This document shows positions 27,621-59,360 of a stretch of 64,000 nt of DNA, one piece after another. The translations under genes and the position numbers were made by a program. The stretch is taken from NCBI GenBank assembly GCA_037043015.1, contig CM073321.1, forward strand, positions 24,379,510 to 24,443,509. The letters are read 5' to 3'. Below the pieces are notes generated by a model that saw only the letters and a list, made by a program, of their open reading frames with translations, made no database searches and was not told where the DNA came from. The number at the start of each line of letters is the position of its first letter. The first letter of the stretch is position 1. The DNA is from Bryum argenteum (lineage: Eukaryota; Streptophyta; Bryopsida; Bryales; Bryaceae).

Positions 27621-29315
27621 TTTATTCCCGGGGCGGGGATAATAGTACTATTTCAATCCATGAGAGTATGGTAGATGTCGAGCTTACCAGGGACGATATT
27701 ATGAATTTGGAGCCGGAGAAGATCTCGAGTGTTGATTGACCTTTCTTGCAGTACTGGCGGATGAGTCCAATGTAAAACTCCATCCGCAGCTCCGAGTACT
27801 TAGCACACTACTTGGATTCCTTATAATGCCCACTATCTGTGGAATATGGCACAAGTGGGGCTTTGAACCCCGAGGGGTTGGTGCCGATGAAGGCTTGCCC
27901 TTCTGGTGTCTTCTTGAACAAGAAGACAATGAACATGTCGTTCGCAGATTTCTCTGGGGCTTGCGCGTTGAAGATCTTCTCAGCTTTTGACACCACATAC
28001 TTGGACTTGCTCATTGTGTAGTTGGGGTGGTGGAGCTGAATCATCGCCTTCAGCTTATCAAGCTTCTTGCAGTGGCGCCGTTCACGATCGAGACCCATAC
28101 AGTAGGATCTGTGCAAGCTCGACTTGATATCACCGCGAACTTTGCTACCAAGGCTTTGAAGAACTCCTTCGCAGAATTGGAATCCTTGCACAGGGAGAAG
28201 ACAGTGTCTCGCAAATCGAACAGCCGTAGCGAAACTGTTCCTGCAGGCGCCTCTATCGACTAGTGGCCAGTGAGAGTCATGGCCTTCGAGTCGAAGGTTC
28301 AAAGATCAAATCCCTTGCTAGACTCCCAATGCTTGGACTTCTCCGGCAGGAAGTTCTTGAAGAAGTCCTCGATGTTGGGGAACATGAGCTTCATCTCCCC
28401 GGCCGTCTTGCACCTCCCCTGATTCTGCAGTCGGGTCGAGTAGAATTTAGCCTCGACGTGGCTGAGCAGCATGTTCCACAACGCCGTCAAGAAGCCCTTC
28501 CTCGACTTCCATTTCTCTGGGCATATTACTCCGCCGTTGGGAAGGAAAAATAGAGGAGATGGTCTGACCGCCTTCAACTCTTGATACACGATTGCCTTGC
28601 ACTTCTGACGAATTATCCTAAACCACACGCGTGGCTCAAGCGATGAAAGTATTTGGTTTTGTGGAAGGACAACCTTGGATACTTCATCGCTCCATCAGCG
28701 GTTTCAACATGGACAAGGAAAGTGATGACCCTGTCGATGTCATCATCAGAAAGATTTCTGAACTTTCTGAAGAACTCCCGGCTCACATGATGTTTATCGT
28801 GTGTGAAGTAAGATGGGTTCATGCGATAAGCCACACCTGTGTCGGGGTTGATCAAATTCCCAAGCAAATGGAGTTTGAAGAAATCTTCAAACTCATTGTA
28901 CATGGAGTCCGCAAATGTGATAATCAGGATCTTGTGCTTGAGGTCCGATGTAGTCAGAATCGTCTTCCCTGCCTTGTTGGGATCGATGTTGCAAAACCGG
29001 ATGTTTAGCAGATCCGTAAATTTCTGAGAGGACATTGAAAGAAAGTGTTAGATGCGAAGAGTGTAAGTACTAAGAGCCTACAAGGAGTTTGTTGTTGCTC
29101 ATTTCTGAGTACTAGAGCGTAGTTATTCCCGGGTCGGGGATAATTGTTCCAGTCTTCCTGGTAATAGCATGGGTTCTAGAGAAGACTTACATCAACCATG
29201 GAACTAAACAAGTGCCCGAAAATTGTAGCGACATAATCCAGAGTGAGAGTCTAAATCTTAGGCAGTGGGACTAATACTGAAACAGATGGTGGATTATCCC
29301 CGGCCTGGAGATAAT
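27621..29315. repeat. Three intronic palindromes
   Basis: Copies at 27621-27643, 29122-29144 and 29293-29315 fall in predicted introns of the ParB-like gene (one in 27429-27687, two in 29024-29341). A weaker half-copy is at about 27472-27490. Confidence 0.8.
27688..29023 (-). pseudogene. Middle exon of the ParB-like gene, with frame breaks
   Basis: Acceptor tctCAG at 29026-29024 and donor CTG|GTAAGC at 27687. The coding reads KFTDLLNIRFCNIDPNKAGK, then DDIDRVITFLVHVETADG, a one-base break near 28625, then WFRIIRQKCKAIVYQELKAV, CPEKWKSRKGFLTALWNMLL and NIEDFFKNFLPEKSKHWESS. After TGA (28299-28301) and TAG (28262) the frame continues with SIEAPAGTVSLRLFDLRD; another break near 28130 leads to KSKYVVSKAEKIFNAQAPEK and ends after a TAG near 27819. 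I do not recognise the family of this part. It is collinear with the upstream ParB-like exon. Confidence 0.45.
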
Positions 29316-29341
29316 CTATGGGAAATGTGTATTGTCTTACC

Positions 29342-30750
29342 TTGAAATTGGTGGGATCGTAGACCGAGTCGTTATTCCGAGTCGCCTTCTTGTTCACGCT
29401 TGCAGAAGAACGCCCACAGTTGATCCAAATAGACCTCCCACGTTTTATCTGGTTGCCCCACGTTGGCTGGGCGTGCTTAAGAGGGTTCGTGGTGTTGTAG
29501 AATGCCGAAATCGCTGTAAGGCGCTTCAGGTCGGTCTCATAAAGAATGTACGCATACCACAATAGAAGTTCTTTCTTCCTGTCCTCTGTCACGGGCTCGT
29601 TCCGAAGCTCCCTCGAGGCTTCCACGGAGTGCTGGCCATCAATGATGGCAAATCTTCCATCCTTGATTGCCTCCCATGATGTCGGCCGCCTAGGGAGCAA
29701 ATTTCCATTGGCGTTAAGGGGAGTGATGATAATTGTCTGCCTCCGGGTAATATCTCCCATCCTTGAGAGGTATTGCTTGGTGTTCAATACAATGTCCCTT
29801 TCAAGACTTCGCACTACCGACGTGTGCTTTCCCCTCTCAAGCTGCGAAATGGGCACCAGCTTCTGTTTTTTCTTGAACAGGAACGAGTCTTTGAAGCTGG
29901 CGTTAAAGATTGTTTGCTCAGGTGCAAACCTCGCATAGTCTGCCACTTCAGCCGAAGGTTTGGATGTGTCCTTCTGTCGAGCGGGCACTTTGACTGTAGA
30001 AGTTAAGGCAGGTACTTGACTTGCGGTTGCCGGGGGAGCGGTACGCTGTCTCTTCTTTTTGGGGGCGGCTCCGCCCGCTACAATCGCATCATTCATCAGC
30101 CTCTTCGCAGGCACTCGCAGAGGAGCCGGCAGGGCACCAGTTGACAGCGGAGCTGAAGCTTCAGGATGCAGGACAAGTGCAAACGCGGCGGGTGCCTTCT
30201 TCTTCTTTGCCGCTTTACTGCTTGATGCTTCATGCGTCTGTGATAGTCTTGACAGCATTGTCGTAAGCTTCCGAACTGTATCTTCCTGGTTGATGTTCTC
30301 CCAGCTGTTGATGTTGTCCTGCCAGAACTAGAGAAAGCCATGCCGAGTCTTGCGCCATTCCTCAAGAAAGCCGTGCGGGTCGAACTGTGTTCCGCAGTCT
30401 ACTTCCACCTCTACCACAATTCCAAAGTGGTAAGGTTCCCTACCCTCGTTCTGCTATAGAAGGACACACTTGAGCAACATGTACTTCTGCCTGTGTGCTT
30501 CGATTGCTATTACCCTTACATTCTGGTGTAAGGGAAAGAAAGGGTCCGTGTAGACCAACTTGGTCATGACGAGGACATGGTTCTTGACGATCTTAAGTGT
30601 CCAGCTGACGACCACATCTTTGAAGAGCCAGAGATCAAGGCTTTCGTCATCGTTATCGCGCATGAAGGGGTCAAACCCGAATGGGTGCTGGACCTTGTCC
30701 AAGGACATGTCAAGGGGGTTTGTGGCGCTTAGAGCCATTGTTTTGTCTGC
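29342..30750 (-). pseudogene. ParB / DGQHR-like domain protein, 5' exon
   Basis: The start is probably MALSATNPLDMSLDKV (about 30737). The frame then runs through TAG at 30456-30454 and a second TAG near 30328 to the donor AAG|GTAAGACA at 29341. Residues after MLSRLSQTHE (30258) include a nuclear-localisation-like stretch (PKKKRQR). The domain follows: QLERGKHTSVVRSLERDIVL, then IIITPLNANGNLLPRRP, FAIIDGQHSVEASREL and LTAISAFYNTTNPLKHAQPT. The (I/V)xDGQHR.x.A signature is the hallmark of ParB/sulfiredoxin-fold and DndB (DGQHR) proteins; here Arg is Ser. In bacteria such domains bind palindromic DNA or act in DNA modification. The eukaryotic role is unknown. A palindrome array lies directly upstream. 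Confidence 0.5.
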
Positions 30751-30820: not shown

Positions 30821-31557
30821 AATTATCCCCGTGGCGGGGATAATTATACCAAGATCTGAGTTGACTATGGCGATGTGGTTAGAGGGCATTGGGATATCTG
30901 CGATTAAGTTAAGGATTTATCCCCGGAGCGAGGATAATCTCCTGTCGTTCTATGTAGACCTGAAGCAAAACGGCAGAATTATCCCTGGGCCGGGGATAAT
31001 TTTTACTTCAATGTTTTGTTATCTACGACAAAGTTTCAGAGTAATCCCTGATGCGTGGATAATCTCTATATGTTCTAAAAGGAACTGAGGCGAAACGGCA
31101 GAATTATCCCCGGGTCGGGGATAATTGTTAATCTAATGGATAATTTGTCTGATTCTGTTCAAGATATATCCCCGGGTCGGCGATAATCTACTATATTTAT
31201 GTGTTGAAACAGGGCGAGATGACGGAATTATCCCTGGACCGGGATAATTTCTACTTTTCTGGTTGATATTTACGGTTATGTTTAGGATTTATTCCCGGTT
31301 CGGGGATAATCTATTGATGTTGGGTGGAAAATCTTGATGAGAAGTAGCAAAATTATCCCCGGGCGGGGGATAACTGTTTGTTATAGGACTTATTTTATGG
31401 TTTTTTCAGGAGTTATCCCCGACCCGCAAAGAGTTCATAGTCTTCTTTTTTATAGCATGGGCGTATTACAATATTATCCCCGGGCCGGGGATAATTCGTT
31501 CCTACATAAGCCAAATACTCGGCTATGCGCAAGATTTCTCCCCGGCCCGGGGATAAC
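30821..31557. repeat. Palindrome array A2, 12 sites at ~62 bp period
   Basis: Sites of 22-26 bp begin at about 30821, 30916, 30978, 31041, 31102, 31164, 31226, 31288, 31351, 31411, 31472 and 31533. Each is built from TTATCCCCGG facing CCGGGGATAA with small, often paired changes. Apart from the first gap the spacing is 60-63 bp. Spacers fall into two alternating diverged types (one ending near CGGCAGAA), so the base unit is a ~124 bp dimer. The palindromes are much better conserved than the spacers. It lies 5' of the ParB-like gene. Confidence 0.9.
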
Positions 31558-32074
31558 ATTGGTAGCCAGTGATGAAAATTCGTGCATTGGCATACTGGCA
31601 ATCATGTGAAACGAGGTATTATCTGCATGCGTTGTAGATTTTAGAATTCAACAGCAATCCCAATCAATTTGAATGAGTTCTTCAATCGAAACAAAGCAAG
31701 TAGAATTCGGAGCCCACCTGAAAGAATGCGAAGTAAAGGCTGGATGTGTTATGACAAACTAAAACCCAACTCAATGATGAGATTAGTTCTGTACTGGACG
31801 TGCAACGCCTTCCAAGCAGATACCTTGAACATCAAAAGAAAAAACAATTGACTTAGCTGAAACCTTAGTATGAATTCGGATACCATGTGCTTCAAACATC
31901 AAAGCTGAAAATGCTAAAACGCAACCTCATAAACAGTAATTCCACTCTATTCAAGCAAAGTACAGAAATAAAAACTAGAAAAGCTCTTATTCAAAGTGCA
32001 GTAAGCACAAAACCCGAAATGCAAAAGCAGGAGCGAGAACCCTGAATTGTGATCATATCTGTAACAATCAAAAC

Positions 32075-35199: not shown

Positions 35200-36100
35200 T
35201 TTTTATTCTCTGTTAGTATTCTATGTTTTTTTGAGGTAGTTTTTATTATTAGTGTACCATATATTTGATTCCATTGATTGTGCGTTATTAAGTAAAGTTT
35301 TGTGAATGGAATGCTCCCAATTACTCTAGTTATTCTAATTTTGTAATTATTATACTTATTCAATAAATATATGAATACAAATTTGTATTTTTTTTCCACC
35401 ACTGATAGTTATGTATAAAATGTTTGATTTTATAGAGAAAAAATTAAGACACAATTGTTTGTAAAAAGTAAAAAATCCATAATTATGAATGGACTTCCCT
35501 CCAAAATCAGTTTCCCACTGAAACATCTTTGCCGCCAAATATTTTCAAAATTGAGTTTTAAAAAGTAGAATCCTACTTAGGAGCCCAATGAAGACAAAAT
35601 TCATGTTGCGACAAAATGTGTTGGCTTTTTGCACGATATCAGGCATTGAGGATACTCCCACGATGTTGCCGTTGAGGTCGGGCTAGGGTTGCTAACTCAG
35701 TCTCTCAATCTTTCCTTTTATTTTCTCTCACTCTCGTCCGTGCTCTCAAGGTGGGCTTAGTTTGATATTTTGTTCCGGTGTCTGTATTCAAGGTTGCGTG
35801 TTTGTGTAGATGGAATTTGAGTTGGTGCTGACTACGTCCGATATAGTTTCTCATTTAGAGGTTTCAGTACTGTAGAAGAGGCGCATGATGTATTCGTTCG
35901 ATAATGTTTCAAGTTACGACAGTTGCTCACCATGTATTTTTCGACTTCTGTATTAGCTACTGATTGTTGTGCGTGGTTTCTTTAGTTGCGAGCCCTAGTT
36001 TTCCTTTCGAAATCTGCAATTCGCAGGTGAGCACGGTTTGCGAATTGAGTGCAAGGCACAATTCCTTAGTGTTTCCGCACTTACTATTAATAGCATGCAC
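35200..36100. other. AT-rich to mixed DNA, no gene recognised
   Basis: A polypyrimidine stretch at 35700-35740 (CTCTCAATCTTTCC) lies about 360 bp upstream of array A1 and could be part of a 5' leader. Nothing else is supported. Confidence 0.4.
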
Positions 36101-36951
36101 GTTATCCCCGGGCCGGGGATAACTTTTAATGTCTGTAAGGACTATGTCCTGGAATCTTTGATCCGATGAGTATCCACGCCCCGGGGATAGTTTTGCACCT
36201 TATACGTCACTGTATATATTATCCCTAGGGCGGGGATGGTAAAGTTTTTCATGGGCTGTTGCATAGTAATTTCTGGGTCAGGCATAATACTTGTTATCGT
36301 GGGTAGTTGCATAGTTATCCCCGGCTTAGGGATATATCCCTTTACATGACATACTTATTGTTATTCTAAGAATGAGAATATTTGTGGTTCTAGCAGCAGT
36401 ATAATAATTATGCCCGGGCCGGGGATAATATCCTACTATATTCTACTAAACGTCATTGCGGGCCGAAGACATAATTTGCCTGCATTGTCATGGGAACATT
36501 TATCCCCGGTCCGAGGATAAATCCTTGTTCAGGGCTTAATATTTATCGATCCTGAGTATGGGGATATTAGTGCTTTCGGGAGCAGTTTAATAATTATGCC
36601 CGGGCCGGGGATAATATGCTACTCTATTTTACTAGACGTCATCCCCTAGCCAAAGATATAATTTGACTTTACCGTCATGGAAAGAATTATCCCCGGTCCG
36701 GGGATAATTTCTGTTTTCCTCATACTCTTAGTGATCATGGTGTTGAGGACCATTCTCCTCTTCTCCTTGATGTACTCATCAAGCCGGGGATACTATGTTC
36801 GTCTCAGAGAAAGAAGTAAGAGTCTTTTGCATCAAACATGAATATTCTGAATCGGATGCTGTCTACGCCTATGGTTAACATTGTTGTTGTCGGGCAAGGT
36901 GTCATCTTTTCTTCTCTAAGGATGGCCTGTTATCCCCGGGCCAGGGATAAC
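36101..36951. repeat. Palindrome array A1, same palindrome at ~47 bp period
   Basis: Good sites begin at 36101, 36219, 36314, 36407, 36498, 36592, 36686 and 36929; degenerate ones at about 36169, 36267, 36452, 36543 and 36640. Spacing is mostly 45-50 bp. The half-site TTATCCCCGG is the one used in array A2, but the period differs. About 36395-36530 is duplicated at 36580-36715. The last site ends two bases before the open frame of the DUF7869-like gene. Confidence 0.9.
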
Positions 36952-37896
36952 TGTGGCGCATCTTTTGCCATTGATTTCTATTTTCATCATCTCGTATACT
37001 ATTAACCAAGCACTAATTTCTCTTTTCAATCCTCTTCCTTTTTGTATGTTGGAGACATTTGTTGTCAATGGTGTTGATTTCCGTCCACCAGTTCTACCTA
37101 ACGGAGTTGCACTGTACGAGGGTTTCAACCGTTCATTAATGGTGTCCAAACGAGTTACTCTTCTAAATGACGCCGGTGTCGACATTGCTAAAGCCGTTTG
37201 TCAATCGGTTGACTCTAGCGTCGTCCCTAAGATTGGTGGTCGGCCTCTCGGATCTAAATTTGTCTGCCTGGAGATAGCAGAATCATTAGTAGAAGCAGAG
37301 GTTCCTTTTGGTTGGATCTACTATTTGCATGCATGGCCGATCAAGCATGTCCTTCTCAACGGAGCAAGCCTCTACGACCACGACCAACGCGCCATCTTCA
37401 ATGCTGCTTGTAAGGTTTTCGGTCGGCCACCACGAGTTGATCTTCGCGAGTACAAGAGCAAACGTCAAAGGCGTCTGTGGGATTCACCACCAAAGAAGGA
37501 GTACTCTCTTACACTGGAGTCGATCAACTTTGTTGCCACAACTTATTGTTGTCCAAAGAATTGTGTGCAAGCCCTATCTTCGAGGCAAAATTAGAAATCT
37601 GAGGTTCCAGTTCTATGTTTGCGGCGATGTTTACCTCAGAAAACATTGTCTCCTTAGTGTGCATGGTCAAGTCTACGAAGCGGCGAATGGAAATGACATG
37701 ATCATGTTGGAAGGTATTGAGGTGTGTTGCGTTGCGTGGTACTTGATTATGGGTGTTCCACATGTTACATTTTTCTGATGGAGGTTTGCCTATCAAGACG
37801 GACAACAAGCAGAGGACCATGGAAATTGTGGTTCAAAGAAACCTCGTATCCAGACTTTGCAAGTCACAGCATCCCTTCTAGCCATTGTGGAAAATG

Positions 37897-40800
37897 CAAG
37901 GTTGTCATACCGGGCAGGCACGCCGCCCGCCCGTCCGTCCACCTTGCCCGTCCGATTGAGCTCTCGCTCGCCCGATATGGTCAAACCTCTGTTGACTCTT
38001 AGTTTAGGTAAAAAAACGAGGACGTGGCAAGGGTTTAGGTAAAAACCAAGCCACTTGGCCGCCACGTACGCGCCACGTGGGACCGATGACATGGCGGGGG
38101 AGGGAAAGGGGGGGCAGGTGACTCGGAAGGGGACGAGAGAGAGGAGAGGGGGGGGCGGAGGAGGGAGAGGGGAGGCGGGGGGAGGAGAGGGGAGGGCGGG
38201 GGGGAGAGGGGGGGCGGGGAGGGAGAGGGGAGGGGCGGGGAGGGAGAGGGGAGGGCGGGGGAGGGAGGGGGGGAGAGGAGGGGAGAGGGGGGGGGGGGGG
38301 AGGGGGGAGGCGAGGAGGAGGGGGACGGGACGGACGGAGGGGGAGAGGGGGGAGGAGAGGGGGAGGGGGGGGGGGAGAGGGGGGGGGGGAGGGAGAGGGG
38401 AGGCGGGGGGGAGGGAGAGGGAGGGAGGCGTGGGAGGCGAAGGAGGGGGCGAGGGGGGAGAGGGGGGCGGGTAATGGAGAGGGGGGGGTAATGGAGAAGG
38501 GGGAGGGTGACTCGGGCGGGGGAGGGAGACGGGAGGCGAGTGATGGAGAGAGGGGGAGGCAAGTGAGGGAGAGGGGGCGGGTGACTCGTGTGGGGAGAGA
38601 GGGAGGGGCGGGTGAGGAGAGGGGCGGGTGACTCGGGCGAGGGCGGGAACCAAATTATGTTTTTTTCCTTTGTTTTCTTAAGAGTAGGGTGGGTAATAAA
38701 TGAGGTAGGGCGGGCGAGGGGGGAGGGGGGTTGGTACCAATTTTTTTATTTTTTTTTTAACTTTGTTTTCTTAGGAGTAGGGAGGGTGCAAAATGGGGTA
38801 GGGCGGGTGAGGGGAGGGGGCGGGTGACTCGGGCGGGGGCGGTACCAAATTATTATTTATTTATTTTTCAATTTTTTCCTTTGTATTCTTAGGAGTAGGG
38901 TGGGTGCAAAATGGGGTAGGGCGGATGAGGGGGAAGGGGGGCGGGTGACTCGGGCGGGCGGGTACCAAATTATTTTATATTTATTTTTAATTCTTTCCAT
39001 TGATTTCTTGTGAGTAGGGTGGGTGCAAAATGGAGTAGGGGGTGAAGGGGGGGGGGGCGGGTGAGGGGGGGCGGGTGACTCGGGCGGGGGGCGGGTGACT
39101 CGGGCGGGGCGGGTGACTCGGGCGGGGCGGGTACCAAATTATTTTATATTTATTTTTAATTCTTTCCATTGATTTCTTGTGAGTAGGGTGGGTGCAAAAT
39201 GGAGTAGGGCCGGTGAAGGGGGAGGGGGGCGGGTGAGGGGGGAGGGGGGCGGGTGAGGGGGGAGGGGGGCGGGTGACTCGGGCGGGTGACTCGGGCGGGG
39301 CGGGTGACTCGGGCGGGAGGCGGGTGACTCGGGCGGGCGGGTACCAATTATTTTTTTTTTCTTTGTTTTCCTATGAGTAGGGCGAATGCAAAATGAGATA
39401 GGGCGAATGCAAAATGAGATAGGGCGGGTGAGGCGAAAAGGGAAGATAAGTGAGGGGGGAGGGAGGGGTAAGTGAGTGGTGAGGGGGGGGGGAGTGAGGG
39501 AGGAGGGGGGGAGGGAGGGTAAGTGAGGGGGAGGGGAGTGTACAATCTTTCCCTTCTCTTCTTTTTTTCTTCTTCATAAACTTGGATTTTTCATTAAAAT
39601 AGCAAAGGCTCTCGGATTAGCAAGGAAAATCCAAACATTCTCCCACAATATTCGGGAAATCAAAATCCCGGAATATATAGAAGAATGTTTGGATATGTTT
39701 ACTCCAAAAATACCCTTGCCTTGTTCAAAGAAGGAGAATGGTGGGAGATGAGGAAAGCTTTGGCAAACCTCTTGCCAAGGCTCTTGGGAGGGTAAGGGCG
39801 GGTGAGGGGTAGGGGGAGGGCGGGTGAGTGAGAGGGGGGGGGGTGACTCTCTTACCATTTTTTTTAATTTTTTAAAAAAAAATTAATTTGTTTTTTCTTC
39901 TCTCCTTTCTCTTGGAATCCTTTTAATTTCCAAATCCTGCACTTTTTTAATATGGGTTACCACATCCCAATTCCCCCTCTTATTCAAGATTTGAGCTATG
40001 ACACGAGAAACTCGCACCCCCCTCTTATTCGAGTTTGGAATACAAAAGTTTAGAATTGTAGCTTAACAATGATTTAAAAAGACTTCCATCCCTCCCATGC
40101 TTGTAAAACACTTCACCCTTCCATTGTAATGTAGCCCAATATTTATACTTGTTTTGTGAATTATATTATGTTTTTTGGATAACTTCGAAATCATAAGGAG
40201 AATATAAATGTATCTCACGTTGAGAAATTTGTTGAAGAACTAAAAATAATAAGAACCATTTTGAATTACGTTAACATTAATATTAAATAGTACAAACGTA
40301 GCTACGCAAATGATATTATATGTATGTTCGAGTACTTGTTGTCAACATTTATATCGTTCCATGTTTTAAATATGCATTTAATTAATACAATTGAATTAGT
40401 TGTGTATCTAAAACAAATAAAGTATTTGTGAAAAATTAAAGAAATAAAATAATTATAATTCAATATTTGTTGTTGCAACTTCTATCATTCTATGTTCTGC
40501 ATATACATGTATTTAGAACAAATAAGATACTCGTGTATTTAATACAACTCAAATATTTGGATGAAATACGAAAGAATGTTTTTGTTTTTATACATATATA
40601 ATAACGTTGCATTCTGTATTATGAACAAGCTCTTTCAAATATTTATTGTTTATGGTATTCAGGTATATAATGGTTTGCTATACGCTCGCCATCACCTTGG
40701 TAGTATGAAATTTAAATTTTGACAACAATTACTAAAATAAATATATAATGTCATTTGTGTGGCTACGTTTGTACTATTTAAATTATTGTCACCTTAATTC

Positions 40801-43334
40801 AAAATGATTCTTATTATTTTTAGTTCTTCCGCAAATTTCTCAACGTGAGAAACATTTATATTCTCCTTATGATTTCAAAGTTATCCAAAAAACATATTAT
40901 AATTCACAAAACAAGTATAAATATTGGGCTACATTACAATGGAAGGGTGAAGTGTTTTACAAGCATGGGAGGGATGGAAGTCTTTTTAAATCATTGTTAA
41001 GCTACATTTCTAAACTTTTCTATTTCAAATTTGAATACGAGGGGACAAAGTGGGTTTTCCTTGTGCCCGTGTGGTAGCTCAAGTTTTCATAAGAGGGGAA
41101 TTGGAATGTGGAAGCCCAAATTCTGAATAAGAGGGGGAATTAGGATGTGGTAGCTCAAATTTTGAATAAGAGAGGGAATTAGGATGTAGTAGCTTAAATT
41201 TTGAATAAGAGGGGGAATTAGGATGTAGTAGCTCAAATTTTGAATAAAAGGGGAAGTGGGATGTGGTAACTAAAATTTAGAATAAGAGGGGCAATTAGGA
41301 TGTGGTAGCTTTAATTTTGAATAAGAAAGGAAATTAGGATGTGATATATCAAATTTTGGATAAGAGGGGGAAATGAGATGTGGTAACACAAATTTGAAAA
41401 ATGCGGAATATGGAAAATAGAAGGGTTCCAAGAGAAAGGAGAGAAGAAAAAACAAATTAATTTTTTTTTTAAATTAAAAAAATGGTAAGAGAGTCACCCC
41501 CCCCCTCTCACTCACCCGCCCTCCCTCTACCCCTCACCCGCCCTTACCCTCCCAAGAGCCTTGGCAAGAGGTTTGCCAAAGCTTTCCTCATCTCCCACCA
41601 TTCTCCTTCTTTGAACAAGGCAAGGGTATTTTTGGAGTAAACATATCCAAACATTCTTCCATGTATTCCGGGATTTTGATTTCCCGAACATTGTGGGAGA
41701 ATGTTTGGATTTTCCTTGCTAATTCGAGAGCCTTTGCTATTCTAATGAAAAATCCAAGTTTATGAAGAAGAAAAAAAGAAGAGAAGGGAAAGATTGTACA
41801 CTCCCCTCCCCCTCACTTACCCACACTCCCCCCCTCCCCCTCACTTACCCACCCTCCCCCCCTCCTCCCTCACTCCCCCCCCTCACCACTCATTTACCCC
41901 TCCCTCCCCCCTCACTTATCTTCCCTTTTTGCCTCACCCGCCCTATCTCATTTTGCATTCGCCCTATCTCATTTTGCATTCGCCCTATCTCATTTTGCAT
42001 TCGCCCTATCTCATTTTGCATTCGCCCTACTCATAGAAAAACAAAGAAAAAAAAAAAAAATTGGTACCCGCCCCCCTCCCCCCTCACCCGCCCCCCTCCC
42101 CCTTCACCGGCCCTACTCCATTTTGCACCCACCCTACTCACAAGAAATCAATGGAAAGAATTAAAAAATAAATATAAAATAATTTGGTACCCGCCCCCCG
42201 CCCGAGTCACCCGCCCCCCTCCCCCCTCACCTGCCCTACCCCATTTTGCACCCTCCCTATTCTTAAGTTTAGAAAATGAAAAAATTTTAAGAAAAAAATA
42301 AAAAAATTTGGTAATCTCCCTCTCTCCCTCACCGCCCCCTCTCTCTCACCCACCCCCTCCCTTACTACCCCCCCCTCTCCCTCACCCGCCCCGCCCTCTC
42401 CACCACCCCCTTTCTCTCTCTCTCTCTCTCACCCGCCCTACCCCATTTTGTACCAACCCTACTCCTAAGAAAAAAAAAGGACCCGCCCCCGCCCGAATCA
42501 CCCGCCCCCTCTCTCTCCCCGCCCCCTCTCCCTCTCTCTCACCCGCCCCTACCCCATTTTGCACCCACTCTACTCCTCAAAAAATAATAATAAAAATAAT
42601 AATAATTGGTACTCGCCCCCCCCTCTCTCCTCTCTCTCACCCGCCCTACCCCATTTTGCACCCACCCTACTCTTCAAAAATAATAATAAAAATAATAATA
42701 ATTGGTACCCGCCCCCCCCTCTCCCTCACCTACCCCCCCTCTCTCTCCCCCCCTCCCTCACCTACCCCCTCTCTCTTCCCCCCCCCCCCTCTCCCTCTCC
42801 CTCACCCACCCTACTCTATTTTGTACCCACTCTACTCCTAAGAAAAGAAAGGAAAAATTTTAAGAAAAAAAAATTGGTACCGCCCCCCCCTCCCTTCTCC
42901 TTCACCCCCCCCTCTCTCTCCCCCCCCCTCCCTCCCTTGCTCCCCCTCCCTCCCTTACCCCCCCTCCCTCCCTCCCCGCCCCTTTCCATCCCCCCTCCTC
43001 CCTCCCCCGCCCCTTTCCATCCCTCACCCGCCCCCATCCCCCCTCACCCGCACCGCCACCAATGTCACCCGCCTTCTCTAAAGTTCACCCGCCCCCCTAA
43101 AGTTCACCCGCCCGAACAAAAGGTCACCCCCCGCGCACAATGTCACTCGCCCCGATGCCGCGATCGACTTACATGTCACATCCTATGTGGCTTTTTACTG
43201 CAAAGTAATCGCCGTCATACGAAAGATTACACACCCCCTACAATCAAGGTGGGCAGCACGCCCGTCCGTCCGGGACAACTCGTACGCCCGTTTTGCTCGC
43301 CCGATTACCTCAACACGCCCGATATGACAACCTT
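37897..43334. mobile_element. Foldback hAT-like element, 5438 bp, giant palindrome
   Basis: It begins CAAGGTTGTCATACCGGGC and ends GCCCGATATGACAACCTT, with an exact 8 bp duplication GGAAAATG (37889-37896 and 43335-43342). The outer ~170 bp on the left and ~180 bp on the right match the 340 bp MITE at 18707-19045, whose middle is replaced here by two ~2.4 kb inverted arms (to about 40345 and from about 40720). The arms hold G-rich (left) or C-rich (right) low-complexity DNA with a repeated module (GAGTAGGGTGGGTGCAAAAT) and then AT-rich DNA (AAACTTGGATTTTTCATTA and its complement near 39580 and 41750). No transposase gene. Long frames in the arms are proline- or glycine-rich artefacts. Confidence 0.9.
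41086..41400. repeat. 39 bp tandem repeat, about 7-8 units, in one arm only
   Basis: Units carrying GAATAAGAGGGGGAATTAGG recur at 41125, 41164, 41203, 41242, 41280, 41319 and 41358. The opposite arm has only one or two equivalent units near 39960-40030, so the array grew after the palindrome formed. Confidence 0.9.
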
Positions 43335-45215
43335 GGAAAATGCTGCCGATCTCATGCCTCATCGAACGAAGACTATTGATACAGGCGAGAAGGTAGTGTC
43401 CAAATGCTTGCCCTCTTCCTACCGTTGGAGGGACAATTTACTAGAGGTGAATGCCATCAATGCCGTCCACGGTCTTCCTCCTATATCAAATTCAGCTCTA
43501 AGTAGGATCCGGCAAGACTCATTCCAAGAGTACTATTCCAAGCAAAAGAATGACACATTTGCGCGTTGTGGTGAATGTGACAAAATCAAACAACTTTGAG
43601 CCTCCAGTACTCGAGGCAGTCGCGCATGGGCTCTTCATGATGCCAAATTCAAACGTCATAATACTTCTCAAATGGCGCATAGGTTGCTCTAGTATAGCAA
43701 CCGTTCGGAGTCTAAGGCACGGCCCGAATCATCTTTGTGCAATATTCATGACAAAATGGATCATTCCAAGACAACCTCTCCGCAATTCTCTCACAAGAGT
43801 AAATCAACCGATTCCTTCATGAAATTTCTGGTTTCCATCATAGGCATGATTGCTCATGAACACGGAGATGTACTTTACACACATTACGGCCTTGATATAT
43901 ATCCGACGGATTCAAATCATACTATCGGTTCATTTGCTCAACTGCTAAGAGATTTAGAATCTCCTCCGAAGTGCTCTTCCAGGCAATTGTTTGCGGGTGG
44001 TAGAAGTAGCCCTCTCTATGAGGCTGTTTTGGATGGGGCGAACATGTGCTTGGATTCGCTTGGTCTTCTCCCGGAGACACCAATCCCGGGAAAGACTCTT
44101 TCTCCGGTGCTACACATGCAGCTTGATAATGCTTGCGGGGATAATAAGAATCGGTTTGTTTTTGCATTCTTTTCACTGCTCGTTTACAAGGGCGTTTTTA
44201 GAGAAATTTACTTGAACTTCTTTATCGTGGGTCACACTCATGAAGATATTGATGCACTTTTCAGGCGATGGAGTAGTAAGCTCAAGACCAACAGCTACCC
44301 TACTGTTCCCCTTTTCATGAGATCCTTCATGGACACAGAGGATAAGCCGGTTATTCCTCACTTAATTGAGGAAGTTCCGGATTTCAAAACGTTTATCAAA
44401 GGTTACCTTTGTGATGGCGACGAGGCGTTATCTGGGCATACTAGTGCCCAAAAATTTAGGTTTTCTAAAGATGCTTCCGGCTGGCCTTTGATGCAGTACA
44501 AAATTCTATGTACCGATAGCGAGTGGCTTCGTCAAAATAGTGCAGGGGTTAGGTTGTGGAAAGTTATGCCAAATGGTCAACCTCAAGTTCCTCTTGGAGA
44601 TCCAACCTTACTAGTTCCAAATGAAATGAAGAATATAGAAGACATTCGAAAGGGAATTAGTGGTTTTGTGAGCTTGTGGGAGTCTTTGGCAGATGCAGAT
44701 CCAACAGGCGACTAGCGTAGACATCATGAACAATTCATTTACTATTGGAAAGCAAATCGTGAGGCTTTAGATCTACCCGTCCTTGCTCCATCAATGTTTA
44801 GGGATGGATTTTGGCCTACTTCTAGGTACCCTCCAAGTGAAGATGATCGATTTGAAGATAACGGAGAATTGCGCGAGGAATTTGCTGTTGATCCTCCGTT
44901 TGTAGAGCAAATACGAGATCGTCCACAGGCATCATTCAGAGTTGGACGAGATGTTTATGAGGGATACCTACTTATGCTACGTCTAACTGATGGAGATCTC
45001 AAGAAATTCTGGATAGCTCGTGCGTTGAGCAACCCAAATGCTAGTGTAGAGCATCCTCAAGAAATCCACATTGAGTATTGGAAGCCAATATCTTCTAAAC
45101 ATGTCAATCCTGACATATACCAAGGGTGGGATACAAGAAGAGGTAACTCTTGGTGTAAAGATATGGATTATAATCCAACTTGGGTGGCTACAACATCAAT
45201 CATGGGAGCTTAGAA

Positions 45216-48200
45216 GCCAAGATTTGGTCTTGAAACCGTTAATCCCAAGATGTGCATACCGGAGCTACAAATTTCAATCATTAAGGACTCTATTATCAAT
45301 TTTGATGAGTAGTTTTCACGTTATATTAGATCATACTAGTTTCAATAGTACACCCTTTCTCATTGCAATGTAGCCAACGCAAATTAGAGTAGTATGACAC
45401 TACTTTTAAACATGATTTATCTATTTATAGTAAAATGTTTATATCCATTTCAATGTATTTCCATGGGATTATTTCCTTCCATTGGTGTTGTGATAATTTT
45501 ATTTATCTATAGATATTATGTCCTTAGTTTCGTTGGATTACTTCTTGTATATATTTTTCTTTGAAGTAATGACTTTCTTCATGCAAGATAATTTTTTGGT
45601 CCTTGAAGCTTGCAATCTACGACACGAGTATTGAGATGTGAAGTAGTCTCAATATACTTTACGTCTCAAAATAATGAATATCAAAGATCAACAAATATAT
45701 TGTTAGAATTTCTGGTATCGAGGTTTCATCTTACATTCTTTTGTTGAATTCATTGGAGTCTCATTTTCATTTTAGTCTCATTTTACTTGACACCAGATTT
45801 ACTATTTTTTAACCATTGATTTAAATTGAGATTGCAAATTGTCTCAAAATACTTAATATTCCCTTTTTGGACTATTTGCCTTTCTACACTTACTATTCAG
45901 TTCGTCTCTGATTTACTATCAAATAGCTTTTCGGCTTCTTCAATTGGTCTCTGTTTCAATTCCCCACTTTTACAACACTCAATTGGTTCAATTAGAATCA
46001 ATTGGACATATAAAATTTCACTTGAGATCTATCTGCATATGCGGCAATGACTACTCTCGTATTCCAAATTTGCAATCTATAAAGACTGGTTTGATTTAGT
46101 TCACAATTTCCTTCACCATATAGCTTACACCAGTAAATGACAAGAAATCAATCAGTGTCAATTTGCTCTCTTCCATTTTCACATCTCAAATTGCCATGGC
46201 ACATTTATAATCAATCAACACTCACTCAAATTGCTGAACTGAATTCTCTCTCAGAGAATCAACATCAAGAACAAGTCGCTCATTCCCTTGTCATACATGA
46301 AATCTCAAATAGGCTACCCCCCTTTACTTATACAATATAATCTACTTTGGATAATTGCTCTCAATTATGACATACAAATAACAAAATTTGTACTTTGGGA
46401 ATTGACCAAATTAACAATACTAGACTCACTCCAATCTACACAACAAATAGACTTAACCAGTCTCTTGAACAAAAAGACAAATTTCTTCAACTCGCACGAT
46501 ACAAGTAGACAAACAAAAAGAATTGATAATACAATTCGATAATATATTTACTAAGTGCAAAGAGTTCACAGAAGACAAATTGCATAAAAGTGAGTTCTAC
46601 CCGAACTAAAGAGAAAGATTCAACTATTTTCCTGTATTAGGCTCATGATAGTAATGACTATTTGCCTAAACCATCACAAGGTCGAAATTCCACCCTCTGA
46701 AGCTGCCTGTTTGTTCTAATTTGAATCTAATTGTCTTTCTATAGCTAATCCTCCCAACATATAGAAATCACATGTCTATTCGTCTCTATTTACATCAAAA
46801 TTTCAAAAGTCATGCAAATTCACAAAATGTCTCGTTCACATAGCCCCCTACTTAGGGAATTGATGTCCTCGTCAATTATACTTGACTTCTTATTCCTATG
46901 CATATTGGTGCGATTAATTAGGTGGACTGCGGATTTGTCCACTACTTTTTGAACATCTGCATCCTCGACTAATACTCCTCGATTGTGGTTTCGATGTCAC
47001 TAAGACCTTGTCTTTTAAGCATAGTATCCAGTGCAAGGAAATTTGTTTACCCAGTTTAAGTGTGGTCCGTATAACAAACATGTAATTGCCATTACCTCGA
47101 AAACTCGATGCCGCCTCGTGCTTTGGTGTTAGATCTTAATCATGATATGAAACTCCGGTCGATTCGGATTTAATTGATTGACATTGATGGTAATTGGAAG
47201 TATCATAGGAAGTAATGAGAAGATTCTAATAGTTGAAATAGGACAACAAAGTTTGGGATTTTGAATGAAATAAGAATGTATTTTCTTTCATTATATAAAT
47301 AATTACTATTTGAGCATAAGGAGTATTGGAGAGACTAGAGTATTGCGATGTTTTTGTGCACTCTATGCACATTGATGTTCTAAAGTGCAGTGTACGGTGA
47401 AGTAAATTGAAAACTAAAATCACATTATCTACATATAAAATTGAGTGTAGAAGTGGATAATAGTTGTATATGAGGACGTTACTTTGCGCAATTCCTATTT
47501 TGTATAAGACGTACTTCCAAGATACAAACCCATGCAGTGTACTTAATTGCTATATATGAATATTCATTTTGAGTACAATACATGATTTACTTTATACTAT
47601 TGTCTTATAAAAAATTAATTTACATATTCGAAATTGATGATGTGAATTTCTGGATGCAATTGTAGACCCCGTCATTTTCATTTTCCATGTCTAAGTGTTG
47701 TAGGGCAACAAAATTTGTTCAAGGCTCATCCGTTGAAAACCTCTATTGTCATGTCATTATGGATGTTCTATGTGACAATAGCAACCAATTCAGACACCGA
47801 TGGTGTAATGCAGGACGAGCAGTAGGATGTCGTGCATGTCATCTTTGTATACATCTTTATGAACATTCATGTCAACATTTGCGTCGAGATTTATGCATGA
47901 GTGTAGTCCTAGTAAGTTAGACATCATGTTAGATGTAATATAACTGGTCAAGTTGTCCAACGTAGAATTCTCATTGCCATGTAGATAAAGCGCCATAAAT
48001 TACTTTTTTCATATATGTCCGCGTGTTTTTTGAAGATTAAATATTAGCAGAATTACTAACACTATTAAAATCTATTTTTTTTTAGCAATATTATTTTACT
48101 GATATTTTATTACTTACATATTATTATTTTATTAGTTTTATATTTTATAATAATAACAAAAAATAATAATTTAATTTTAATATATTATTTTAATATTATT

Positions 48201-51609: not shown

Positions 51610-53400
51610 GAGAGGGAGATCCTCTCTTTCCCCCCTTTTTTTGCTGAAAATGTATTCGTGTTGCTTTCTTAGGTTGTTGGTTTTGATTTGTAAACCTTTC
51701 TTAAAAATGGCAAGCGTAATTGCCCAAAAATTCGTTGTGTTAATTTAATTCGTGTTGCATACTCTTGTTTTTGATGTTTGCCTTGGTTGGGATGTTTGAG
51801 CCTTGCTTGCCTATGCTGTTTTGAATCATTGGATGCTAGTGTGCACCACGTGTAAAGGTAGTGCGGAAGCGCTGCCAAAATTTTTAGGCTGAATTTATGC
51901 AATTAGGTTAAAAAATCGGGAATTTGAAAATAAGCGCGGAAGCGCTGCCCAATTCACTCCGAACTTCAGGGTTCATCCTAGAATGATTGAAATGATTGTC
52001 TAGAGGGTTTGTAAAGGCGTCCATTGTTTGGAAGATTGTATTGGTTGCACCCCCCCCCCGACCCAACTTGTGAGCTAGAACCAGACAACCGGAATTTAGC
52101 CTCACATAATTGGTGTGTTTGCCGAGAGGGTTGGATGCTTTGCTCTAATTTTTGTTTGTTTTTTGTCTTTTTTTGAAGCATTCGATTTGAAGAAAAAGGA
52201 CCAGATTACGATAAATAGTAAGTTGTGATTTCTTTCACAATCCAAGCTTGATTGTTTTGGTTCTTGCTTGGTGGTTTGTGTGGATTGGGTTTTGTTTCCT
52301 CATTGGTTGTTTCTTGGACTTTATGGGGTTTAAACTGATTGAGTAATTAGTTTGAAGAATCTTGCTTTGAAATTTTGGTTGATCCTTGGACTTGGTCCAT
52401 TTAAGTTGATGTAAATTGCATCAATTTGAATTTAAACATATTAAATTGATTTTAATTAAATGGAAGCAAACTAGATTAAAGTGAATTGAATCACATTGAA
52501 GTGAATGGAATTGCATTGAAGTGGTTTTGTTGTAGGTAGGCGCTTGTGGTTCTGACTTTCTTGTTAAGCCTTGTGTGGTATGAAGGAAGGGGACTTGGAG
52601 CTTGAGGAGTCAAGCAAGGAGAACTTGCTTTGATGAATGCTTAATTCATGTTTGAAATTCTGATTTGAGTTGCTTTTGCTTCATTGCCTTGTTTTCACTT
52701 GAAGCATTGAAGTTCATTGCTTTGTGAATTAATTGATTTGGTGCATTGTGTAGGTGCACTCCTAGGGAGGAGGGGGGCAGATTACTATATATAGTAATCT
52801 GTAGCCTTGGGTACTTGAAGGACAAAACAACGGTTCTTTTAAAACCGAGTCTCATTTGCCTTGCTTATTGCATATATGTGTGTGAATTGTATGCAAGTTG
52901 ACCGTGTTTAGTTTGTATAGCCAAGATCGGATGTGATTTTTGTAACTCTATGTTGTTGATTTTTGTTGAGGGTGGGTAAACACGTAATTCGTTATAATGG
53001 GAATATTCAAACTCTCAAAAACCAATCGACCTAAATTGCAACATATATATCGAGCTAAACGCGCGTGTTGTAGAGCTAAACTGAATACAAAAGATGATGA
53101 AAGTAGCAAAAGCAAAATTCATCCCGACAACAATTCGCAAAAAGAGCACAATAAACGATAAACTCAATTAAACTGGGAATCGACAATCAACTCCGAAAAC
53201 TTACAAACTCTTGAATTGTTGACTTTAAGGCATAACAACTATACCAAACCTTAACTATGGATAAGAGGTAGAACTTCTACGTGCATTTCTAAAATGAATC
53301 TATTGGCAAAAAGTCACGACACGATAAATTGATAGCTCAAATTGCACTGAGATCATTTACCTCGACTAGAGCTAAATTGGCATGCCCAAATAAAGTAGGG
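51610..53400. other. No gene recognised
   Basis: Moderately AT-rich with many TTG/GAA runs. Includes a C10 run near 52050. No supported gene. Confidence 0.5.
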
Positions 53401-53408
53401 ATGTCAGG

Positions 53409-56210
53409 CTACTCCTCTCCACCGTCGAACCGCTCAATACTTTGTTTGATGATGTCGATTTGACGCTTCGATAATGAAATAATCGGACTCCGAGAGCCAA
53501 GTTTTGCACTTGATTTCCATGACGTAAAAATAGCATCAGCATGAAGCCATTCCGGAATGTGAGTGTCTTTAACTGTCCATTTCAAAGTCTTCTTCGTATC
53601 CCAACCAGCATAGGTTTCTTGAACAACACTATTTTTTGATGCAGGTTGAAAATATTGCATTTGAATACAGCCTGGATAGTTGTGATCAACATCGAGATCA
53701 ATTAAAGCCCTAGTAATCCAGAAAGGACGAGCATCCCCATCAGCTGGACGTAGAGCTACAAAATATCCAGAAAAAACATCTCGACCAACCCGAAACGACT
53801 CCCTTGGTCTATCACACAACCGTCCGATAAAGTGCGGATCACGCCCATATTCCTCTCGCAATTCGCCAGTATTTAGGAACTCTCGTGTCGGAGGTACTCG
53901 AGTTAAAGGCCAACACCCGTTCTTCAAAAATGAAGACACTTCTATAGTCTCAACCAATGCAAGCTTCACAGCTCACCAATAGCGAATAACAAATTCATGA
54001 CGCCGACCAAATTCTCCAAATATGTCCTCCGCACATGAAGTCTCCCACATCTTAATAAACCCTCCAATGCCTTTTACAATGTCATCACGGTTCTTCATGG
54101 GAATGGGCGCCAAAGGTTTCATCTCACCTGTAGGTAACAATGGTTTTCCTGTACTTCGGTCCTCTCTCCACAATTTTATACCTCCATTAGTAGAAGGTAA
54201 CCACTCATTGTCTGTGCCTAACATCTTCTATTGCATCATGGGCCATCCATTGTCATGCTTGTAAAACTTGAATTGCTGACCTTCCGAATGCCCAACTAGA
54301 ATTTCATCTCTAGAACCAATGTAGTCTTTGATATAACCCTTAAAGTCAGGTATTTCCTCTATCAAATGAGGAATGACCGGCAAAGACTCCGCGTCCATAA
54401 ATGACTTCATCAACTGAGGAAGTGTGAGAAAGTCATTCTCTTTCAGATTCATGCTCCAACGTCCGAAGAGGGCGTCAATATCTTCGTGGGTATGTCCAAC
54501 TAACAAGAAATTGACATATACTTCACGGAACACACCCATGTGTACCAGAAGAGACCAAAAGCAAAACATAAATCTATTCTTGTTGTGAGAAGCTGCGTTG
54601 CCCAGTTGCACATGCAAGACGGGAGGTAGAGGCTCCGCCACGCCAGAAACTTCACTTTCAGGAAGAAGAGAGTTTAAACACCCTTCTTTTCCAAACAATA
54701 CAGCTTCAAATATAGGCAACGACTCCAAATTTGCGAATAATGATTTCGAATATGAGATCGGAACACCTTCTAGATCTCGTAAAAGCTTTCATATTGATCC
54801 AATAGTGTGATTGCAATCACTTGGATAAATATCGAGCCCATAATGAGCATACCGGACATCGCTATGCCCGTGCGCAATCATGCCAGTCACAGCAATTGGA
54901 AGCTTCATCAATGCATCATTTGCCTTTGTTTTATGTGAAAATACAGGGCACGCAGTCTTTGCATGATCCATTTTGTCATATATTATACAAAGTACATCTC
55001 TCGGCTTCTGAATAGAAAGAAAAAGATTTGAGTAATAATACTCACGATGTGTTTCTTGATGATGCAAATGCTCCTCTAGCTTCTTGATCCACATATTCTC
55101 TTCACATGAATCAGGTACCATAGACTTGATCATTGTCTCCATCCTGTCACAGGTTGAGCAACGAGCAAAGTTGTCCCCCGGCACCTTCTTTGAATACTCA
55201 GAAAATTTTGACCTCCTAATCCTGCTAAGTGTGCTCTGAGAAATGGACTTCAAGCCCAACCTCTCATTGATGTCATTAATCCCGGGTATGGCATCCTTCC
55301 ACCTGAAGGACGACGGCAAGGACCAAGACACAACCTTCTCACCAAATGTCAACATCTTCGTCCTGTGAGGCATATGATCAGCAACATTGTTAATGAATGT
55401 CTTCAGAGTAGCTACAGCTTGCTTAACATGCAATCGTGGTTTCTTCTGACCAACATTGCCATGATGGCGAGCACGTAGTCCAGCTGCAACTTCTGCCTTC
55501 CCCCTGTAGAATGTTGAAATTGGAACTCCACTTATATTTTGCCATGCACGCGCGCAAACGTCAATGCCTTCAGTCGTTACCATCATCGTGCCGTCTGGTG
55601 CCTGATGAAAACGATTATGAGCATCTATCTTGAAATGTGACTTAAATTTAAAACCCGACGCCTCGTACATCTGCTTTCAGAGAGCCATAATTTTGTCTTG
55701 AGGGAAGGGTTGGCAACAGTTCTTACTGCAGCAAATCTTGCTTGCAACCAAGTTGAGAGAATCTAACGTCAGGAGCTCCTCTTCTCTCTTGGTTCTTAAG
55801 AATCGTGAGTTCCGATGTTCTAACTCATACGGTCGCACCCCCTTTCTCTTTGGATGATCGCGGGCATAAACAGCGACGTTAAATTGATCAACTCGTAAAT
55901 GATCAAGTAGTGACCAGCCCTCATGGATAGCATTGCTGAGCTTCCAACTCCTAGTTCCATATATAGTCTCAGCAGGTACGAAGTCGAAATTCAAGCACTT
56001 CACGATCTGCACAACTACCTGATCTTCACATACGGGCTCGTCATTACTCTCTAACATTCTTTCAGCGTCCAGAGTCTGATAAATGCCTTCACCTACAACG
56101 TCCCCACTATCGTTCAGAAGTGTCACAAATTTCGTAACCCATTTACTTCTGGGCAGTTCGGGGCAATCTTTTAAATGGTTTGGAAGAACAAGCTCGGAGG
56201 GGACATCCAA
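53409..56210 (-). pseudogene. DUF7869-like transposase-type protein, copy 2
   Basis: Near full length (about 930 codons) in one frame apart from stops: TGA (~55676), TGA (~54787), TAG (~54230) and TGA (~53972). The order is MDVPSELVLP (56210); KWVTKFVTLLNDSGDVV; LTLDSLNLVASKICCSKNCC; KSHFKIDAHNRFHQAPDG; GVPISTFYRGKAEVAAGL; HMPHRTKMLTFGEKVVSWSL; SQSTLSRIRRSKFSEY; CSTCDRME; DKMDHAKTACPVFSHKTKAN; YGLDIYPSDCNHTIGSI; LHVQLGNAASHNKNRF; VGHTHEDIDALFGRWS; PHLIEEIPDFKGYIKDY; and a C-terminal ELREEYGRDPHFIGRLCDRP. Copy 1 has LDNACGDNKN where this copy has LGNAASHNKN, so the first presumed catalytic Asp is lost here. Array B lies directly 5'. Confidence 0.65.
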
Positions 56211-56453
56211 GTCCTATAAGACCACAAACAAAGATGAATTAGTACGCATGGATAAACTCAAGACAAAAATATATTAAGCAAAATTAGTAAATCTTATACC
56301 TTAGAAAAAAGACGCTAAAAATCTGCGTCGCCATCAGATTCACTCAATTCCATGATTACCTGAAAACCAGCAATTAACACACAATCATGAGATATTAGTG
56401 GTAAATTAATATACCTGCAGTCAGGAATGTGTATGACCATTGAGAATGTATGG

Positions 56454-57123
56454 CCATTTAGCTCGACTCGAGCTAAATGGTCATCAAGATTACTGTCCAT
56501 CACTTACTCCGAAGTAATTCTAAAAGGAAGACCATTTAGCTCGACTCGAGCTAAATGGTCTTCTTTTCACACATGCATCGTGAGCGCGAGAAACTGTGTT
56601 CTTGATGCCCATTTAGCTCGACTCGAGCTAAATGGGCATCAAGATAATTGTCCATCACTCACCCCGAAGGACGTGTAAAAAGGAGACCATTTAGCTCGAG
56701 TCGAGCTAAATGGTCATCTAGCTTCAATAACTTCGAGGTGAGCGTGATGAACAGTTATCTTAATGACCATTTAGCTCGACTCGAGCTAAATAGGCAACAA
56801 GAAAACAGTTTCTCGCGCTTACGATGCATGTGTGAAAAGAAGACTATTTAGCTGGAGTTAAACTAAATGATCCTCCTACAATCATCTCCGTAGAAAAATC
56901 AAATAATACTTAGGTGGATGACCATTTAGCTCGAGTCGAGCTAAATGGTCTTCCTATGAATCATCAAGTATACGACTTCGTGAACTCGAAGCATTTTGAT
57001 GTGGATGCCCATTTAGCTCGAGTCGAGCTAAATGGTCTTCCTTTGAATCATTCAAGTTCACGACTTAGTGAGCTCGAAGCATTTGGATGCGGATGCCCAT
57101 TTAGCTCGAGTTGAGCTAAATGA
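56454..57123. repeat. Palindrome array B, nine 27 bp palindromes at ~78 (then ~88) bp period
   Basis: Sites at 56454-56480, 56532-56558, 56609-56635, 56687-56713, 56767-56793, 56844-56870 (degenerate), 56922-56948, 57009-57035 and 57097-57123. Each is CCATTTAGCTCGA, one base, then TCGAGCTAAATGG. Start-to-start distances are 78, 77, 78, 80, 77, 78, 87 and 88 bp. Spacers are 50-61 bp and related. Spacer 2 (56559-56608) recurs as its reverse complement at 56794-56843, and spacer 3 at 56714-56766, making a larger inverted repeat centred near 56700. Confidence 0.95.
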
Positions 57124-57539
57124 GCTTGTCCATATTTTATGCATTACTGATAAAAAAGTGCCTCGATATTCGTGCACAGTAATTTGTGAGAATGATTCTT
57201 GGGAATTGTGCACAAGTAAAATAGTATATTTGCCTCGATTTCTGTGGACACCAACTCCGACGAAATCCACTTTCCATCAGGAATGCACTACGATGAAGGC
57301 AACATATGACCAGTCAACAACAAATTCTTGTTACACATTGAAATTGAGGATATTGATTGAACTCACCTTCACGCCGTGCCGGACAGCTGCAATACTTCAA
57401 CGAAGGCCCTGGGCATCCTCAAAAGCAGCAGGCGCATCAACTCCAGAGCTACTAAGAGTCCCAAATCCTAATCAGAATTTACTAATTAAACCGGAAGCAC
57501 AGATGGGAAACGGAGTATAGGCAAAACATAGTATACTGA

Positions 57540-57720
57540 GACGAAGGGCGGAGGTGCGGTGGTGCGAAGGTGAGGCGAAGGGCAAATGTGTGAAAGTACG
57601 AAGGTGCGGAAGAGCGGAGGAGCAAAGGAGCGGAGCAGCAGAGGAGCGGAGGAGCGGGATAGTGCGCAATGAGAAAGAAGAGCGAGCAACACCAAGCGGG
57701 AAGAGAAATGGCGCCAAAAA
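57540..57720. repeat. Purine-rich GGAGC-type repeats
   Basis: Repeated GGAGCGGAGGAGC and AAGGTGCG motifs. It lies 5' of array B, as the GC-rich block at 32075-32640 lies 5' of array A2. Frames through it are low complexity. Confidence 0.7.
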
Positions 57721-57919
57721 AGAGCACGAACTGGACAGAGAAAGGGCGCCAAAAAAGGCCTCTAACGGTCAAAGAATTTTGAGTAAAAGCGATGTGGTTG
57801 GGAACTTTGGGAGGAACGAGGAACTTCACGAGGAACGGGAAACTTCACAAGGAACGGGGACATCTTGGGAACTTTGGGAGGAACGGGGACATCTTGGGGG
57901 AGTAAAAATCATTTGAAGT

Positions 57920-59360
57920 TAAGTCTCCGAGAAATCCGGAATGTTTCCATCCAAAATGTCGTTTTTCGAAATCTATTTGCTTTACTTCCATATTTCACTC
58001 TTAACAATTGTTAGGTTTATTCTAGTGAATTAGCATGTGAAATGGTGAACGCTTTTAACATTTGCTAAGCCTTTATGTCTAGCGTTTATGCTCAATTTAA
58101 CAAACTTGATAATTGATGTGAAGTATTGTAAGTTTTGTATTTAGTAAAGTACGTGTAATATCAAAAGATTAATACTTTGTACATTAAAATAGTTATAGTA
58201 ATAAATTATTTAATTTATTTAAATGTGATTCTATAAGATTAGTTTCTACTTAATTAGGTGTGGATTAGGTATATTAAGTATGATATTCAATTATGTTGAA
58301 TGAGATATTCTACAAATGGATTTTATAAACACAATATTCAATATATTTATGTGAGATATTATTTTATAAGTATTTAGACAGTGAATAAGTTGTGGAATTA
58401 TAAGTTTATTACTTACTTCTTTCAAGTGTATTATTCCATACATGATATTTAAAGTATAATATTATTGGTTTAGAATCAAGTCTTGTTAACACTTAGTGAG
58501 TAAATATATTTTGCAGATTTAGTATTCTATGTGTGATATTCGAACGTAATAATATTTAGTTTTACTTCAGTTCTTATGCTAAGGTGATTTTAATATTATG
58601 GTATTCTAAACCTATTTTCAAAAATTTAGAATGTATCCGCATTTACACTTTCTTCCATAAAGTTGCTATCTAGCTTCTATCTTTACTTTTTAATCTTAAA
58701 TCTTTAACTTCAAAAATAATTAACCTTTAATCCTAAACCCTTAACCCTATAACCAAAACCTTAATTCCTAAATTGTATAGCCTAAATTCTATATAGTAAA
58801 CCCTATACTAAACCCTTAACCCTAAACACTTAACCTTGAATCATAACTACTACACTGTAAAATATTTTAAGCTTGGTAGTTACTTTGAACTCCAATCCGT
58901 AATTATGGAAAAATATCGAAAAACACTAATTTTAGAATTTGCCCGTCGAACACTAGATAATTTTTGAGATTACAGCTATTTTAAAGTTAAAGGTATTTTT
59001 TAGTATTACGTAAACATTTTTAAGAATATAAAAAATAAATTGTTTTATAGAATAAAGAATAAAAACCATATGTAAAAAAAAAAAAACTTAGACAATGTTT
59101 AAATAAAAAGTTATCATTTATTTAACTAGGTTAAAATTATTATGAACTAAGGCTTTTAGCAATTTATCCTTATGATTCAAGTTATATACTATTTCCGTAC
59201 ATAATTCTCATTTCTACAACTAACACAAAACACGTGACATTACACGTAAGTATGCATTAGGTATATATATGGCCTCTTAAATTAAGGATTGGTGCGGCGG
59301 CAAATAAACTTGTATTATGTTTTACAAGTATATTATATTATATTATAATATATTATACGA
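57920..59360. other. AT-rich; degenerate CCCTAAA-like stretch at 58690-58860
   Basis: Within AT-rich DNA, 58690-58860 has many CCTAAA, CCCTTAACCC and CCCTATA motifs, resembling a decayed plant-type (CCCTAAA) interstitial telomeric tract. The fit is loose. No gene is seen. Confidence 0.4.

Follow-up and report, generated by a model that had tools for sequence, protein, structure and literature searches.

Palindrome arrays with inverted spacers in a giant DNA transposon of Bryum argenteum: a putative cis-acting control region

We analysed 64,000 nucleotides of the moss Bryum argenteum (assembly GCA_037043015.1, contig CM073321.1, positions 24,379,510 to 24,443,509 of the forward strand; hereafter the window), which contain a periodic array of nine palindromes at positions 56454-57123 (array 1; like every feature below for which no strand is named, it is given without one). 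Array 1 lies inside a giant (14-28 kb) DNA transposon bounded by terminal inverted repeats (TIRs), next to a gene of the DUF7869 family that encodes a putative transposase. We consider it probable that array 1 serves this element as a cis-acting control region and that its palindromes are sites for a dimeric protein encoded by the element itself. Comparison of copies supports the conclusion that blocks of spacers between the palindromes were inverted during evolution.

The palindromes of array 1 have the form CCATTTAGCTCGA-N-TCGAGCTAAATGG. Six of the nine are perfect over 27 bp (starts at 56454, 56532, 56609, 56687, 56922 and 57009); the fifth (56767) has one mismatch, the ninth (57097) has two and the sixth (56844) is degenerate. 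Successive units are 78, 77, 78, 80, 77, 78, 87 and 88 bp apart and enclose spacers of 50-61 bp, which bears out the nine units at 77-80 and then 87-88 bp reported by a first-pass annotation made from the letters alone. Such palindromes are far beyond chance: the half-site, with up to two mismatches, occurs 23 times in the whole window, 17 of them inside the array (mean 1.56 in 100 shuffles), and all six odd-centred palindromes of the window with a stem of at least 13 fall within array 1 (none in any of 20 Markov-1 controls). The array also holds an inverted block (56532-56870), in which spacer 2 and spacer 5 (56794-56843) are inverted copies of each other (94% identity over 50 positions), as the same annotation had noted. 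Its further claim that spacer 3 matches the reverse complement of spacer 4 (56714-56766) was overstated, as the identity is 68% only; spacer 1 is 74% identical to the same reverse complement. The best symmetry axis of the block is 56701 (77% symmetric; 44% for the runner-up axis, the inner 14 bases being omitted) and the centre of the fourth palindrome is 56700. Thus, the block is centred on that palindrome to within one base, in agreement with the earlier description.

We then searched the genome (G000, 258.8 Mb in 25 contigs; the window lies within C1, 44.09 Mb) for other copies. These are homologous to the window rightwards from position 52979, where a TIR begins (52979-53006, + strand, AACACGTAATTCGTTATAATGGGAATAT); beyond it the flanks differ and are unrelated. 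The TIR, with up to three mismatches, matched 600 + 614 places (control 0 + 0). Among 100 of these matches we counted 15 pairs of opposed neighbours 13-30 kb apart, 14 of which were fetched (C1:13745433/13774848 was left out; a 151-bp element, described below, is additional). All 14 pairs, with ends 14-28 kb apart, had perfect 4-bp target site duplications (TSDs), and the 14 TSD sequences were all different. Thus array 1, which the first-pass annotation had not connected with any transposon, is internal to a giant TIR element, here called F1, and F1 has the TIRs and the TSD of fixed length that characterise cut-and-paste TIR DNA transposons. Array 1 sits 5' of a broken DUF7869 gene (53409-56231, - strand), a putative DDE/D transposase in one frame with in-frame stops; protein P0001 aligns to window positions 56231-53412 at 82.7%, and the structure core 398-613 of the putative transposase matches integrases and transposases. 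In a fuller F1 copy (C10), array 1 lies upstream of the DUF7869 gene (-) and a second array, array 2, lies upstream of gene 2 (+). In the fullest copy seen, two genes face outward: that of the putative DUF7869 transposase and a second one, which is multi-exon and has an NIF/FCP1-like part. Single sites are present in addition near the element ends and within the second gene. In the window these include half-site-like sequences close to the left end (53026-53079; TCGACCTAAATTG, TCGAGCTAAACGCG) and a single degenerate palindrome by the 3' end of the DUF7869 gene (53356-53376). Of 26 F1 left ends, 25 carry, no more than 110 bp from the TIR, a half-site with at most one substitution, and 24 keep the palindrome near the DUF7869 3' end (at most five substitutions). 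The full F1 palindrome, with up to two mismatches, occurs at 2915 places genome-wide, and its reversed control at none.

The association of palindromes with the DUF7869 gene extends beyond F1. We grouped the DUF7869 matches of the genome into groups F1-F4, a grouping of our own; F3 and F4 were chosen to test the expectation of palindromes, which had not been fixed in writing beforehand, in the 2.2 kb upstream of two copies each. Palindrome arrays adjoin the DUF7869 gene in all four groups examined, and their letters differ by group: the arms are CCATTTAGCTCGA-N in F1, AATTATCCCCGG-N in F2, CAGTTTAGCTCGA-N in F3 and TTATCGTCGG-N in F4. All four upstream stretches of F3 and F4 contained palindromes, which were strong in both F3 loci and in one F4 locus (L109) and weaker in the other (L110). 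The palindromes of F1 and F3 have their inner 21 bp in common, and it is the three outermost bases of each arm that distinguish them; those of F2 and F4 share the arm ends TTATC and CGG. The period of the array varies among the groups as well (about 46, 54, 62, and 53 or 77-80 bp).

The order of spacers was tabulated for 33 F1 loci (300 spacers); the overlapping loci L018 and L019, which lacked orientation, were dropped. The first-pass annotation had proposed that spacers invert as in a bacterial shufflon, and had held that one order and orientation in all copies would speak against this; both vary across the 33 loci. Several spacer types occur in the two orientations (A 20+/28-, C 22+/14-, E 28+/2-, G 20+/2-), and the clustering placed some reversed types in clusters of their own (A/K, H/I), which makes these counts of reversed units too low. 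Spacers 2-5 of locus L013 correspond to spacers 5-2 of L011 in reverse complement (1.00, 0.92, 0.89 and 0.94), while spacer 1 matches forward (0.96). The four-spacer block of L013 and L020 is 92% identical to L011 when inverted and 79-80% when read forward, whereas the flanks of L013 are 93-94% identical forward; against L015 the block gives 89% inverted and 80% forward, again with the flanks forward. L020 has the same spacer order as L013, so the inversion in these two loci may be one event. An inverted E unit is common to the window copy and L010, and in L038 the group C- E+ D+ is present three times in tandem. Inverted spacers were found in F3 and F4 loci too (the inverted pairs listed are a filtered subset), and the same comparison gave no clear inverted spacers in F2 loci. 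Exchange between identical palindromes, whether by recombination, gene conversion or template switching, would be enough to produce these inversions.

In the mechanism that we favour, a dimeric element-encoded protein, either the transposase or the product of the second gene, would bind the palindromes. This binding would regulate the two promoters and/or help to bring the element ends together for cut-and-paste transposition, in the manner of TnpA at the repeats of CACTA elements. Since any two palindromes repeat each other in direct and in inverted orientation alike, ordinary recombination, conversion or template switching at these sites could duplicate, delete and invert spacers. We also considered that the array might be a selfish tandem repeat without a role, carried in the transposon and expanding or flipping by recombination. 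Array length and order do differ among copies, with tandem duplications and inversions, yet palindromes are kept beside the DUF7869 gene in four groups despite their differing letters, they stay alike between unlike spacers, and the single sites near the ends are conserved; we therefore regard a passive repeat as unlikely, albeit a serious alternative. Somewhat less probable again is a role for the palindromes as structures, either hairpins within transcripts (5' leader, introns) or extruded cruciform DNA, that would for example provoke or evade silencing. The perfect stems, the palindrome copies inside the second gene and the fact that both arms differ together between groups are all consistent with pairing. 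Among 454 F1 units (a count that includes the overlapping L018 and L019, so that some units are counted twice), 194 were perfect, and changes were one-sided in 371 cases and two-sided in 23, 13 of the latter complementary, where 12.2 two-sided changes were expected. Pairing alone would permit many stems, but in F1 it is the letters that are conserved, which favours a protein site over a hairpin. In three of the four groups, two-sided changes were nevertheless slightly in excess, a hint in the contrary direction, towards pairing.

The shufflon proposal itself fared unevenly. Spacer blocks were indeed inverted between copies; the block inversion of L013/L020 ends at palindromes, and the inverted spacers of F3 and F4 and the inverted unit E would fit an element-encoded recombinase that inverts spacers and so alters expression or binding. 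On the other hand, no tyrosine or serine recombinase family was found among the open reading frames (ORFs) scanned, which were not every ORF of the full element, none of the spacers forms an alternative end of a gene, and duplications are present as well. Moreover, units B (0/43) and D (0/33) were never inverted, which argues against a free switch. Taken together, we find a shufflon-like switch hardly credible, and it ranks lowest of the readings considered. Little more weight should be given to the broadest form of the control-region reading, a long shot in which giant transposons would encode a palindrome-binding protein whose sites double as recombination sites, the element would rewrite its own arrays by inversion, and site and protein would diverge together in each family.

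The window contains a second giant element, F2 (21993-45682, of which 21993 is the left end), which has the gene order of F1 and palindrome arrays of its own, so that the same design is present with another palindrome at 30.8-31.6 and 36.1-36.95 kb, which the first-pass annotation had overlooked. Its left TIR (21993-22015, + strand) is AAGGGGATATTCGTTATTTTGAG; the inner 19 bases, with up to two mismatches, matched 189 + 193 places (control 2 + 3), and one of two TIR pairs had a perfect 4-bp TSD. The second gene (24226-30258, - strand; ORFs, not gene models) is homologous to and collinear with the second-gene ORFs of F1, and its part at 24226-25050 is NIF-like (PF03031, 8.9e-13). This NIF/FCP1-like part (24226-25050; L073:5296-6156) has an altered catalytic motif (18 relatives). 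One F2 palindrome array lies at 30821-31558 (AATTATCCCCGG-N-CCGGGGATAATT, period about 62) and another at 36100-36952, directly upstream of the F2 DUF7869 gene (37091-45306, + strand); the palindrome occurs at 799 places genome-wide (control 0). The gene falls into two pieces, 37091-37898 and 43327-45306, between which lie ∼5.4 kb (37900-43300) with G-rich/C-rich repeats at 38.1-39.9 and 41.8-43.2 kb and a 39-bp tandem repeat at 41070-41395.

Several further features were observed. The F1 copy of the window continues past array 1 (57124-57947), and its homology to the other fetched copies breaks at ∼57947; within the window no right end was found for this copy. Past this point (57947-58000) the window copy carries, as judged by eye, the reverse complement of sequence located further downstream in other copies, apparently a local rearrangement. 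Directly outside the F1 left end there is a perfect 24-bp palindrome, CAGATTACTATATATAGTAATCTG (52778-52801). Beyond the window end, L094 (G000:C1:24448644-24448794) is a 151-bp element with F1 TIRs, the TSD CTAA and, by eye, degenerate half-sites, and is a derivative resembling a miniature inverted-repeat transposable element. A 25-bp tandem repeat, AAGTATAGCCTCGGCAGTAGAGCTA, adjoins an F3 palindrome array (L107:1099-1198). By a hand count, C1, which makes up 17% of the genome, has ∼120 of 150 scored F1 DUF7869 matches, an enrichment that might resemble that of a repeat-rich sex chromosome.

These data give DUF7869, listed in Pfam with unknown function, a testable identity as a transposase. 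In four groups of elements the same gene has retained symmetric sites next to it, whose sequence differs from group to group, and the comparison of copies documents that blocks of a eukaryotic palindrome array have been inverted.

Finally, we compared the elements with known systems. In bacterial shufflons of the R64 type, segments are inverted between identical sites, and the L013/L020 inversion resembles them in this respect. Here, by contrast, the context is a eukaryotic transposon in which the scanned ORFs gave no recombinase, and the inverted segments do not form alternative 3' gene ends, since the array is 5' of the gene and the spacers are short. Relatives of the DUF7869 protein are present in Physcomitrium and in Ceratodon, where one is named KC19_VG078600 and, we presume from this name, lies on the V chromosome. 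The moss Ceratodon also has the Sherlock elements, a group of DNA transposons that abound on the sex chromosomes of mosses. With respect to superfamily, the excerpts of the literature used here describe for Sola a 4-bp TSD (PMC10741241), variable TIRs, a DDD transposase, some elements >15 kb and occurrence in the moss Physcomitrella (PMC10741241, PMC9033089). The 4-bp TSD of F1, its size and its host agree with this, and by this description the DUF7869 elements are possibly Sola; palindrome arrays and an NIF-like second gene do not figure in these excerpts.

CACTA (En/Spm) elements, such as the 20.5-kb soybean Tgmt*, have subterminal repeats that bind TnpA; according to the portion of PMC2613891 considered here, these repeats are cis-determinants of excision, for which TNPA and TNPD are both needed, and their motifs can pair into palindromes and differ between families, which is thought to match different DNA-binding proteins. 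F1 and F2 are similar: they too are very large TIR elements, rich in copies of a short motif that forms palindromes and differs by family. Co-evolution of a transposon DNA-binding protein with its sites, raised for CACTA in the same portion, becomes testable within one genome. By the termini AACACG (F1) and AAGGGG (F2) and the 4-bp TSD, the elements are not CACTA/EnSpm, which are described there with CACTA termini and a three-base duplication; the CACTA repeats are subterminal, while the main arrays here are upstream of two outward-facing genes, and in Pfam the protein has a match to DUF7869 and to nothing CACTA-like. Even so, as far as the excerpted accounts reach, the TnpA-binding repeat of CACTA elements is the nearest described mechanism.
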